Shown here one piece after another: positions 38,264 through 42,363 of a stretch of DNA of 63,968 nt; within the stretch, counting starts at the first letter, position 1; each line of letters starts with the position of its first letter. The DNA comes from an uncultured Bacteroidota bacterium (GTDB lineage: Bacteria > Bacteroidota > Bacteroidia > Flavobacteriales > Flavobacteriaceae), in assembly GCA_902519955.1 (NCBI GenBank), contig CABYMF010000004.1, positions 1 to 63,968 on the forward strand, read 5' to 3'. A program made the translations under genes and the position numbers. The notes beneath the pieces were generated by a model. That model was not told the DNA's origin, did no database searches, and worked only from the letters and a program-made list of their open reading frames with translations.

Positions 38264-39157
38264 TTGTCAATTAAGAATTTTTTTTACTTCTTATTTGGGA
38301 TAATAGTCAGCTTTACACATTGTTACTCTCAAGATCAGCTTACTTTAGATGTTGATAATGATCTCTATTTTAATAGAGACTTCTATTACTCAAGTGGAAT
38401 CTCTTTAGCTTATTCTTCACAGAAGAGTAAAGAAGAACAAAGATTTATTGATCATTTAAAATTGGTCCAGTATATATACACGCCATCTAGTAGATATGAA
38501 CCAGATCCTAAAAAATATGATTATCCTTACAGTGGTTATTTGTTTTTAGAGGTTGCTAGACAAAAAAAACTAAGTGATTATTCGAGTTTTTCACTAGGAG
38601 GAAATATTGGTATTACCGGTGATGCATCCTTGGCCAAAGGAATGCAAAATTTATATCATGATCTTGTTTTGGATCTTCCAAATCTAGAATGGAAGTCTCA
38701 AATGCCACAAGAAATACAAGTAAATTTATTATTCAACTATATTAATGGTTTTAATTTATTTGATAATATAAATTTCTCAACCAAACTTTATTCAAGATTA
38801 GGAACTTATCAATTGATGGCAGGAATCAATTTTGGTTTGTTAATTGGAGATACAAGCTGGTATAGTTTTTCGGATAATATTGTATCCCAATCAAAAAATA
38901 ATTTTTCTTTCTACATTGGAACTAGTCAGGAATATTATCATCATGATTATAAACTTGAAGGGAGTTTATTTAATGATAATGCAAGTCTAACATTGACTTC
39001 AAATAAATACAGAAATATTATGGAAATTGGACTATTAAAGAAATTTAATAGATTTCAAGTTCTCTCTACATTTAACTCCATGTCAAAAGATACGGAAACT
39101 CAGAGAACATTAAGACATCCTTTTTTAAAAATTAGTATTAGCTACATCCTTAATTAA
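38264..39157 (+). CDS. LpxR-like outer-membrane lipid A deacylase
   Basis: Secreted beta-barrel candidate: a signal peptide (ends HCYSQ) then DVDNDLYFNRDFYYSSGISLAYS, matching the N-D-x-D-x-Y start and following Ser of LpxR/DUF2219. His132 in MQNLYHDLVLDLPNLEWKSQ fits the catalytic His block. LpxR removes the 3'-acyloxyacyl chain of lipid A. The start is TTG at 38264; the ATG at 38259 is out of frame. 297 residues. Beta-strand alternation continues to a terminal aromatic-rich strand, as expected for a barrel. Confidence 0.75.
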   Translation: MSIKNFFYFLFGIIVSFTHCYSQDQLTLDVDNDLYFNRDFYYSSGISLAYSSQKSKEEQRFIDHLKLVQYIYTPSSRYEPDPKKYDYPYSGYLFLEVARQKKLSDYSSFSLGGNIGITGDASLAKGMQNLYHDLVLDLPNLEWKSQMPQEIQVNLLFNYINGFNLFDNINFSTKLYSRLGTYQLMAGINFGLLIGDTSWYSFSDNIVSQSKNNFSFYIGTSQEYYHHDYKLEGSLFNDNASLTLTSNKYRNIMEIGLLKKFNRFQVLSTFNSMSKDTETQRTLRHPFLKISISYILN

Positions 39158-39217: not shown

Positions 39218-39306
39218 AAAAGCGCTCCTGATTTGTACACTAGTTTAATTTAGACTAGAATCTTTTTGTATTTTTTGTTAATTGGTTTTGTTAGGAGCGT
39301 TTTTTA
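39218..39306. terminator. Long-loop inverted repeat / bidirectional terminator or small RNA
   Basis: Between convergent genes, CGCTCCT (39223-39229) pairs with AGGAGCG (39293-39299), flanked by A and T runs that extend the stem apart from a bulged G. The 63-base loop contains a second hairpin, CTAGT/ACTAG (39240-39258). Six to seven T follow on the plus strand and a shorter T run on the minus strand. It could simply end both transcripts, but the size and nested stem also suit a small structured RNA. The flanking 39158-39217 is AT-rich with nothing else seen. Confidence 0.5.
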
Positions 39307-40179
39307 TTCAATCTCTATTTTATACATATAGGGTGATCCAATCCCTTCATCTTCAGATGTAATCCAGAAAGTTTTATTATCAATTATTTTAATTGCTTCA
39401 ACTTGAGCTTTTTCAAGTGGGATTTGGAATTTTTTAAATTTCATATCACTTAAACTTTCCAAATTAAAGTCTTCAAATAATATTAAATATTGACTTCCCT
39501 TTGAGTTATAACTAACAAGTGCAAGAAGACCAAGCTCTTTATTGAAGTCACTACCAGTAATTAAAGAATTTACATCATATGTAATTTTGCTTTCAAGTAC
39601 TTGCTTTGAATTACTTTCTTTATCAATTAAATATAAATCAGTAAATAGATTACTTCTATCCTTTGATAAAACTGCAATTTTATCTTCAATTAAAAATAAT
39701 GCTTCAGCATCATACTTATGTTTTGGTCTTGGAACAAATATTTCTTGATCTTTATATGCAATATCGATTTTACCATCAACACTAAAATCATTTGTTTTAA
39801 CTTTTATAATGTTTAGATTGTCTCTGTAGCCAAAATTGTTTCCTGTGTCAGCAATAAATATATAATCTTCATCAGCTGTAACATCTTCCCAATCATTATT
39901 ATAAATTTCCCAAAAAGATTCTTCTTCTAATTTTATAGAATTTATAATCTCACCATTAATATTAAAAAAATATAAACTTGGCTCTCCTCCTGAATCATTA
40001 TGAGTTATAAAAACTTCATTTAGAATTTCTAAACCTGAAGTTTCATTTATGACTTTTGGTAAAACAATAGACTCAAGAATAACAACATTCTCAAAGTTTT
40101 TTTTCTCTTGTCCATTTGAACAGCTATATATTATTAATGGTATTATTAAGTGATAATTTTTGAATGATTTAAACATCAT
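39304..40179 (-). CDS. Propeller-like lipoprotein (phytase/SdiA-regulated-like)
   Basis: Lipoprotein signal (IIYSC). The body has blocks NETSGLEILNEVFITHNDSGG, NNDWEDVTADEDYIFIADTGNN and KHKYDAEALFLIEDKIAVLSK, a pattern I associate with six-bladed propeller or phytase-like secreted proteins of Bacteroidota. 291 residues. Enzymatic activity is not evident. It is the last gene of the operon starting at 42363 and overlaps the preceding gene by 11 bases. Confidence 0.6.
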   Translation of the reverse strand: MMFKSFKNYHLIIPLIIYSCSNGQEKKNFENVVILESIVLPKVINETSGLEILNEVFITHNDSGGEPSLYFFNINGEIINSIKLEEESFWEIYNNDWEDVTADEDYIFIADTGNNFGYRDNLNIIKVKTNDFSVDGKIDIAYKDQEIFVPRPKHKYDAEALFLIEDKIAVLSKDRSNLFTDLYLIDKESNSKQVLESKITYDVNSLITGSDFNKELGLLALVSYNSKGSQYLILFEDFNLESLSDMKFKKFQIPLEKAQVEAIKIIDNKTFWITSEDEGIGSPYMYKIEIE

Positions 40180-41368
40180 TTGAGCTTAATTTTACTATTT
40201 TTAATTGATTACTTTCATTATTAAAAACAGTCCAAACAATAAATATTTGATCATCAAATATTTCTAATTGAGGAACTCCTGTACCTCTTCCACTGTCAAT
40301 TTTAGAAATTGTTATTGGCTTTGAAACTGTTCCATCTATCGAAGCTTTTTTTATTCTTAAGTATGTCCCATCATCGTCACCTTCCATATAACTTACTATC
40401 ACTTCTTTTTCATTTAAGAAGGCAGTATCAACTCTACCAATAGCACCAAGGTCATTAATTGTTATTGGGATCCCGAAAGAGGATCCATAAGATTCTGAAA
40501 AGGAAAGATTAACTTTTGGTATTCCATCTGAAACAGTGAACCAACTTACAGCAATATTATTTGAATTAGAGGCAATTTTAGGGCCATTGACTGGACATCC
40601 ATATATTACCCATCCATCATTATGAACTGCAATAGGATCTTCCCAAGCCATGTCTATATTTCTTGTAACATATATATCTCGCACTTCTTCTTCAGTTCTA
40701 TCTCGGTAGGCAACTAGAGGTCCCTTGTTGGTATATGTCATTGACGTCTGACAACAATCACAAACTGATGAATCAAGTTCAGTTTCATTTATAATATCAC
40801 CAGTATTTGTTATTTCTGCAAATCTAATTGTCATGGGCCTGTGATCACCTTCCTTATCTTTCTCAACTGTATTTCTTCCGTCTAACCAAGTAATTAAAAA
40901 GCCATCGCTATCATTTGAGGCTATACTTACAAAACCATGTTCTGCTTTAAATCCATCAGTATTTAATATGAAGTCTTCTTTTACTTTTTCTCCAGATAAT
41001 TTATGTAGACTTAAAAAAACATCATAAGTATATGTACCTGAGGCAGACTTTTTTAAATAATTTGTTAGAACCTGATCGCCACTTATTGCATGCGTTGGAA
41101 AGTCAGCCCAATTGATAAACCAGTCAGAACCAGTAGCCAAACTTATAGGATTGGTCCATACTTCATTTTTAAATTGTCTAAAATTTAAGCTGGCATTCAT
41201 GTCCTCATCACTGGAAATCCAAGTCAATGACAAGTTACCATTATTTGAAACTAGACTAGGTTGTGCATTATTGTTGTCATGTAAGAAAGATATTTCTTCT
41301 ATTATAATTTCATTAGAACTACAAGACAAAAGACTTAACAATGATAAAGCAATGACATATTTTTTCAT
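40169..41368 (-). CDS. Sialidase-like repeat lipoprotein with CDCC motif
   Basis: Lipoprotein (lipobox LLSC, Cys16). The rest shows repeated Asp-box-like beta strands (SLTWISSDEDMNASLNFRQF, FLITWLDGRN, IAVSWFTVSDGIPKVNLSFS) of a BNR/sialidase-type propeller, but no sialidase catalytic set. A CDCC cluster at residues 203-206 (SSVCDCCQTSM) is striking in a periplasmic protein and could bind metal or cycle redox state. 399 residues. It follows the TlpA gene by one base, so a reductant-client relation is possible but inferred. Confidence 0.65.
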   Translation of the reverse strand: MKKYVIALSLLSLLSCSSNEIIIEEISFLHDNNNAQPSLVSNNGNLSLTWISSDEDMNASLNFRQFKNEVWTNPISLATGSDWFINWADFPTHAISGDQVLTNYLKKSASGTYTYDVFLSLHKLSGEKVKEDFILNTDGFKAEHGFVSIASNDSDGFLITWLDGRNTVEKDKEGDHRPMTIRFAEITNTGDIINETELDSSVCDCCQTSMTYTNKGPLVAYRDRTEEEVRDIYVTRNIDMAWEDPIAVHNDGWVIYGCPVNGPKIASNSNNIAVSWFTVSDGIPKVNLSFSESYGSSFGIPITINDLGAIGRVDTAFLNEKEVIVSYMEGDDDGTYLRIKKASIDGTVSKPITISKIDSGRGTGVPQLEIFDDQIFIVWTVFNNESNQLKIVKLSSNDV

Positions 41369-41369
41369 A

Positions 41370-41861
41370 TTACAACATCTTTAATTTATTAATCATTTCT
41401 TCAGAATCCCATTCAATTGCCCCAACAATAGTTTCAATTAATTTACCATTTTCATCAAAAATATATGATGTTGGCATAGCATAAATTCCAATTGTCTCAA
41501 ACGATTTAGTTGATTTTACAAAATTAAAATCAAAATTCCATTTATTTTTAAACTTAGAAATTTTATCAACCGTTTCGTCAGAAACTAAAAAAAAAGTATA
41601 TCCGAATTCTTCTAGTATTTCTTCAGCTCTTTTAATACCAGGCATTTCCTCTATACATGGGGCACACCATGTAGCCCAGTAATTAACCACAATTTTACGT
41701 TTTTTATAGACTGAGAGATCTAAATTATTATCGTATAGATCAACTAATGAGGTTTTAAGCTGCAAAGACTCTAAATCAGAAAAACTTTTATTATTTGTTA
41801 TTCCTGAGTTACAACTAAATAATAAAAAACAACATAACGTATTCAGAATTATCTTTTTCAA
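41370..41861 (-). CDS. TlpA-like thiol-disulfide lipoprotein
   Basis: Thioredoxin-fold protein anchored outside the inner membrane: lipobox SC at Cys17, then VVNYWATWCAPCIEEMPGI with the redox pair C66-x-x-C69 and a cis-Pro block IGIYAMPTSYIFDENG. 163 residues. TlpA-family proteins reduce periplasmic disulfides, often for metalloprotein maturation. Operon mates are the orphan plug upstream and the CDCC protein downstream. Confidence 0.9.
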   Translation of the reverse strand: MKKIILNTLCCFLLFSCNSGITNNKSFSDLESLQLKTSLVDLYDNNLDLSVYKKRKIVVNYWATWCAPCIEEMPGIKRAEEILEEFGYTFFLVSDETVDKISKFKNKWNFDFNFVKSTKSFETIGIYAMPTSYIFDENGKLIETIVGAIEWDSEEMINKLKML

Positions 41862-41892
41862 ATTTGAAATTTTAATTTAGGGAAAAAAATTT

Positions 41893-42363
41893 TCAGGGTT
41901 TCTTTATTTTTTTATCCCTCTTTTTAACTTTTTTAGAAACTTTAGAAGACTTATTTAGCAAGTTTTTTCTGCTATTGAACTTTTCAGCACTTACATTGGT
42001 TTTAACAACAATTACCCCTGCAGCTCCTTCACTTCCATACTTATTTGTTGAAGCCAATCCATTTAGAAGTTCAACATAGTCCACTTGACTTACGGTTAAT
42101 GACGGCGGATAATTATATATCACACCATCAATTTCCCATAGAACCTCATCTCCGGCAGTTTTTAAGGATTGTCTTCCTCTAATGGCAATATTGTGATTAC
42201 CCATTCTATCAATAATTTTTCTAGCTCCAGGAATTCTATTAGCAAGTGCGTCAACTAGTGACATAGATAAAATAGCATTTTGTTGAGCATTTGCAATCTC
42301 ATTTTCCTGAGTTACAGATAAATTAGAAAATAGTAGGACTAAAACTATAAATATCTTTTTCAT
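41893..42363 (-). CDS. Stand-alone TonB-receptor plug domain protein
   Basis: A signal peptide (about 20 residues) then a single plug domain of SusC/TonB-receptor type: ALANRIPGARKIIDR, HNIAIRGRQSLK, LWEIDGVIYNYPPSL, VDYVELLNGLASTNKYGSEGAAGVIVVKT. No beta-barrel follows; the protein ends in ~35 Lys/Ser-rich residues. 156 residues. It is a complete open frame, so a simple truncation by frameshift is unlikely. First gene of a four-gene operon (42363 to 39304). Confidence 0.8.
   Translation of the reverse strand: MKKIFIVLVLLFSNLSVTQENEIANAQQNAILSMSLVDALANRIPGARKIIDRMGNHNIAIRGRQSLKTAGDEVLWEIDGVIYNYPPSLTVSQVDYVELLNGLASTNKYGSEGAAGVIVVKTNVSAEKFNSRKNLLNKSSKVSKKVKKRDKKIKKP

Follow-up and report, generated by a model that had tools for sequence, protein, structure and literature searches.

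A TlpA-type thioredoxin and a CxCC propeller lipoprotein as a candidate copper-handling pair in the cell envelope

Organization of the locus

The window, a stretch of 63,968 nucleotides, originates from a genome of 1.04 Mb that is 79% complete and that, judged by the closest contigs with a name, belongs to MED-G11-like Flavobacteriales. Its minus strand contains a row of four genes, which is approached from the other side by a gene encoding an outer-membrane protein.

42363-41893, minus strand: plug gene, encoding an orphan SusC-type TonB plug of 156 aa with a signal peptide and without a barrel
41861-41370, minus strand: TlpA/ResA-type thioredoxin lipoprotein gene, 163 aa, with a TTG start and the motif W-C66-A-P-C69
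41368-40169, minus strand: CDCC (CxCC) gene, encoding a seven-bladed propeller lipoprotein of 399 aa with the cysteines C203, C205, C206 and C258
40179-39304, minus strand: second propeller lipoprotein gene, 291 aa, with a fold like glutaminyl cyclase/YjiK
38264-39157, convergent to the operon: LpxR-type outer-membrane protein of the lipid A deacylase family (PF09982, 122 bits)

The four open reading frames follow each other head to tail with gaps of 31, 1 and -11 bases, as described in the original prediction, and lipobox-like cysteines are recognized in the sequences of TlpA (C17), the CDCC protein (C16) and the second propeller (C20). The same four-gene order is found in many congeneric species, and its recurrence indicates that the arrangement is not a product of chance. 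The LpxR-type gene stays adjacent to the operon across the genus.

The CxCC propeller and its TlpA partner

The predicted structure of the CDCC protein, an AlphaFold model with a pLDDT of 90.7, shows a propeller, in which seven blades were assigned by hand from the DSSP strands of the model. The protein had originally been described as a repeat lipoprotein with a CDCC cluster; the former term is corrected to a seven-bladed propeller, whereas the latter is present in the form of C203, C205 and C206 but incomplete, since the real signature of the family combines CxCC with C258, which had not been mentioned. This signature is strongly conserved. The CxCC triad and C258 are invariant in 46/46 genome-derived aligned homologues from several phyla, and the three cysteines of the motif are kept in every full-length homologue, with a middle residue that varies between D, S, T, E, Q and V, so that the motif has withstood the comparison with homologues by which the original prediction could have been refuted. 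C258, which is part of the sequence GCPVNGP, is located 52-56 residues past CxCC. In the model, CxCC resides in the loop between blades 3 and 4 and C258 in the loop between blades 4 and 5, which would place the four cysteines on the same face of the propeller, a placement that does not imply bonding distance. It is this single face that is conserved in the family, as positions with at least 90% conservation account for 32 of the 95 loop positions on the side with the cysteines, whereas only 2 of 59 reach this level on the opposite side (p = 2.7e-6, ignoring relatedness). Besides the cysteines, the conserved face contains Trp, Asp, Arg and Tyr residues that do not vary, and Y115, E143, D163, R222, R230 and D231 are among its invariant positions.

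Bacteroidota, Gamma- and Alphaproteobacteria, Planctomycetes and Opitutus-type bacteria are among the groups in which homologues of the CxCC propeller are found. Within the sampled Bacteroidota, the gene is present in about a quarter of the genomes (90 of 392), mostly as a single copy, and further homologues are encoded on plasmids of the Roseobacter group and of Runella. Two contigs (L034, L041) that are assigned to Thermodesulfobacteriota and to Candidatus Marinimicrobia carry the locus of the genus with CDCC identities of 74-78% and look like binning errors.

The homologues go by the name of sialidase in databases, and most of the plasmid-borne copies are annotated as 'sialidase family protein'. 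The sialidase/BNR_2 propellers (PF13088, GH33) share the propeller fold, and a sub-threshold match to BNR_2 is the sole Pfam signal in most of the homologues scanned, with one distant protein from Runella exceeding the cut-off. GH33 sialidases are six-bladed catalytic propellers. In contrast, the CDCC protein of the window has seven blades and four invariant cysteines, it contains neither a FRIP motif nor canonical Asp boxes, and it shows no match to Pfam even at an E-value of 1, which led us to reject an identity as GH33 sialidase. The closest structural neighbours of the model are enzymes, lectins and sialidases, the nearest being the CylK propeller with a Z-score of 33, followed by PLL lectins with 28, where the relationship is restricted to the fold at about 10% identity. 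No NCBIfam model names the protein, its profile does not match any of the solved chains, and no curated family covering the CxCC propeller was found. A search of the literature returned no description of the family, and the word sialidase does not appear in the copper texts checked.

The second member of the pair belongs to the thioredoxin superfamily, as evident from matches of TlpA to the Redoxin and AhpC-TSA families over cut-off (PF08534, 54.2 bits; PF00578, 49.8 bits). The cysteines C66 and C69 described in the original prediction are confirmed as part of a WCxxC active site, which together with the lipobox-like C17 characterizes an exported-type TlpA. Of 87 loci outside of the genus, 23 have a TlpA homologue directly upstream of the CxCC gene and in the same orientation, compared to 3 of 1019 other genes (0.3%), a large difference even though its p-value of 3e-38 ignores the relatedness of genomes. 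These loci range from those of Zobellia, Algoriphagus and Fulvivirga to ones of Pseudohongiella-type Gammaproteobacteria; among the Bacteroidota the ends of both genes often overlap, and the TlpA copies listed contain the motif WCxPC. Most CxCC homologues are found without an adjacent TlpA. The originally suggested relation of a reductant and its client thus receives strong indirect support from the upstream position of TlpA and from the invariant cysteines, whereas the reduction of the client itself is a proposal. DsbD is encoded in the genome of the window.

Copper genes in the surroundings and the proposed role of the pair

A relation of the family to copper is suggested by the genes that surround some of its members. 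In 10/10 plasmid records opened, the CxCC gene is embedded in a copper island containing varying sets of genes for a multicopper oxidase, a copper-binding protein, an azurin-type protein, cytochromes c, a P-type ATPase, a cation diffusion facilitator, DUF411 and L,D-transpeptidases, although these records represent few independent events since the plasmids are closely related. In Runella, the gene is flanked by a multicopper oxidase on one side and by an RND efflux row on the other. In two plasmid contexts it is located beside mer genes, and another soft metal is therefore possible. Copper genes also accompany the family on chromosomes, where the following loci were found:

L174: CxCC gene inside a CusA/TolC/CusB row
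L175: CxCC gene with a CopA-type ATPase, a multicopper oxidase and TlpA
L048 and L170: CxCC gene near other HMBD ATPases
L043: CxCC gene near DUF411
L053: CxCC gene adjoining an HMA chaperone and a TonB receptor
L171 and L179: CxCC gene after NosD-NosF-NosY, with NosL nearby

In the last two loci, which belong to two genomes of one genus, the CxCC gene also comes after a gene for a membrane protein of 144-156 aa, and NosL is at hand in L179; a function as accessory of N2O reductase maturation is possible in this case. In genomes of Sphingobacterium and of the Zobellia type (L064, L049, L092, L168), SusC/SusD-type genes adjoin the CxCC gene or are located close to it, in two of them (L064 and L168) together with a small membrane protein, which might reflect the uptake of copper or of a copper chelate.

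Genes with an HMBD are located within 10 kb of the CxCC gene in 5 of 79 genomes compared to 0.57 expected (p = 3e-4, ignoring relatedness), a proximity that is significant yet weak as a phylum-wide statistic because it is absent from the majority of chromosomal loci. Copper neighbours are lacking for many of the homologues on chromosomes, particularly those of family f38, and no copper gene adjoins the operon of the window. The role in redox or metal handling assigned in the original prediction is thus supported indirectly by homologues recurring in copper loci but not by the immediate neighbourhood of the operon. Among the 25 genomes of the genus (G000-G024), most of which are incomplete, no P-type ATPase (PF00122) was detected over cut-off, whereas Sco is present in 23, and it therefore appears that these bacteria make use of copper, with no sign of the usual exporter. 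The absence of a P-type ATPase is unusual for heterotrophic bacteria. The sole HMA match in the genome of the window is contained in a protein of 233 aa, where it is fused to a MauE membrane domain (L184:928-1629).

On balance, we favour the view that the pair of TlpA and CxCC propeller handles copper in the cell envelope with TlpA acting as reductant. In such a mechanism, DsbD would supply electrons to TlpA, which in turn would keep the cysteines of the CxCC protein reduced and its site able to take up metal. The conserved face of the lipid-anchored propeller would then bind Cu(I) via thiolates, and the ion might either be held safely or be passed on to cuproenzymes or efflux pumps. The conservation of the pair, of its cysteines and of one face, the copper genes around part of the family and the separability of the two halves of the operon are observed, whereas the binding of copper, the flow of electrons from TlpA to its client and the direction of copper traffic are inferred.

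Two known systems with similar features are described in a review (PMC7558416). CopG (DUF411, PF04214) is an exported protein that binds a copper cluster through a CxCC motif and whose gene clusters with those of multicopper oxidases such as cueO, with copA and with cus genes (PMC7558416). By analogy, the CxCC propeller would work like CopG but it is not CopG, since the latter has a small thioredoxin-like fold, whereas the CDCC protein is a seven-bladed propeller of 399 aa that does not match PF04214. The second parallel concerns the TlpA of Bradyrhizobium and its clients ScoI and CoxB, where a TlpA-type thioredoxin reduces copper-binding cysteines, including those of oxidase subunit II, prior to metal loading (PMC7558416). 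In contrast, the client in the window is a propeller that is encoded beside its TlpA and whose reduction is only proposed. While its mode of operation would thus resemble known copper-thiol systems, the scaffold and the dedicated pair appear to be undescribed as far as the searched libraries show. More tentatively, we consider it possible that the CxCC propeller constitutes an unrecognized envelope class of Cu(I)-thiolate proteins that spans multiple phyla, has a dedicated TlpA reductant and is hidden under the name 'sialidase', and that ocean Flavobacteriales in which no copper ATPase was detected use it as a main buffer or chaperone of copper in the envelope. If this holds true, a family found in about a quarter of sampled Bacteroidota, on conjugative Roseobacter plasmids and in several other phyla would be misnamed as sialidase while being engaged in copper handling, and the biology of envelope copper would gain a new scaffold, the propeller, together with its reductant. 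Such a role would also bear on copper management in small-genome ocean bacteria in which no copper-exporting ATPase was detected.

Instead of storage or resistance, the pair could serve the assembly of cuproenzymes by delivering copper to cytochrome oxidase or N2O reductase. Such a function would be consistent with the linkage to nos clusters in L171 and L179, with the prevalence of Sco in genomes without a P-type ATPase over cut-off and with the activity of the Bradyrhizobium TlpA on the cysteines of the oxidase copper site (PMC7558416), but it is difficult to reconcile with plasmid copies that reside in copper-resistance islands, with the copy in the Cus row that is accompanied by efflux pumps and with the lack of the CxCC gene in most sampled Bacteroidota, and we thus regard it as somewhat unlikely. 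Since delivery is a special case of copper handling, the readings overlap and the confidence assigned to our main proposal and its rivals does not sum to one. Alternatively, the propeller might be a glycosidase- or lyase-like enzyme or a ligand binder, with cysteines that are structural or close to an active site, a TlpA that only acts in repair and a copper context that originates from shared stress islands. The nature of its closest structural relatives, the further invariant residues on its conserved face (Y115, E143, D163, R222, R230 and D231) and the many loci devoid of copper genes would agree with such a function. However, three near-adjacent cysteines are hard to fit as plain structural disulphides, the propeller has a dedicated reductant as partner, and copper genes recur in unrelated lineages as part of different copper systems, which renders an enzyme or ligand binder an unlikely assignment.

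The separate row of plug and second propeller

The remaining two genes form a row that is independent of the pair. The plug matches PF07715 with 29.1 bits (cut-off 23.9) and resembles the plug region of SusC/RagA TonB receptors but, as originally predicted, its 156-aa open reading frame does not contain an outer-membrane barrel domain. The AlphaFold model of the second lipoprotein (pLDDT 80.2) shows a propeller that resembles glutaminyl cyclase (Z 20.7) and YjiK (Z 20.5, 17% identity) in its fold, with only sub-threshold matches in Pfam, including Phytase-like and DUF6929. This protein is common in the order, where it is unlinked to the CDCC gene, and its linkage is confined to one genus.

Within this genus, both halves of the operon are separable. 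In G002 and G017, an intact row of the composition HTH-[plug, plug, second propeller]-LpxR does not contain the TlpA-CDCC pair between plug and propeller, and in G017 the pair is located elsewhere on that contig, at a distance of about 540 kb, whereas G016 contains both arrangements. The congeners L035 and L036 contain the pair without an adjacent plug, and no such plug gene was found beside the pair outside of the genus. The single four-part module of the original prediction is thus unsupported, and the wide co-occurrence of the four families that it implied was not observed. Despite the tight spacing of the genes, their preserved order in many congeners and the SusC/SusD genes that adjoin the CxCC gene in Sphingobacterium and are located close to it in loci of the Zobellia type, it is on the same grounds very improbable that the four products form one envelope machine at an outer-membrane barrel, and we have rejected such a system. 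Instead, an old two-gene pair of TlpA and CxCC propeller sits inside a separate plug/lipoprotein row, with plug and second propeller as lineage-specific companions of each other and not of the pair, with which they share a locus in this genus. In a tree of CDCC proteins, the operon-type copies group together with a support of 94/96 and those from alternative loci are united in another group (100/99), a pattern consistent with the four-gene row having arisen once in the genus.

The plug family is restricted to the same genus, where the barrel-less plugs constitute a small genus-specific family. In the congeners L026, L028-L031, L033, L034, L037, L185, L186 and L190, a second orphan plug paralogue is encoded upstream of the first; in L026 this second copy is split by a frame break, and L190 contains a third, diverged plug before the second propeller.
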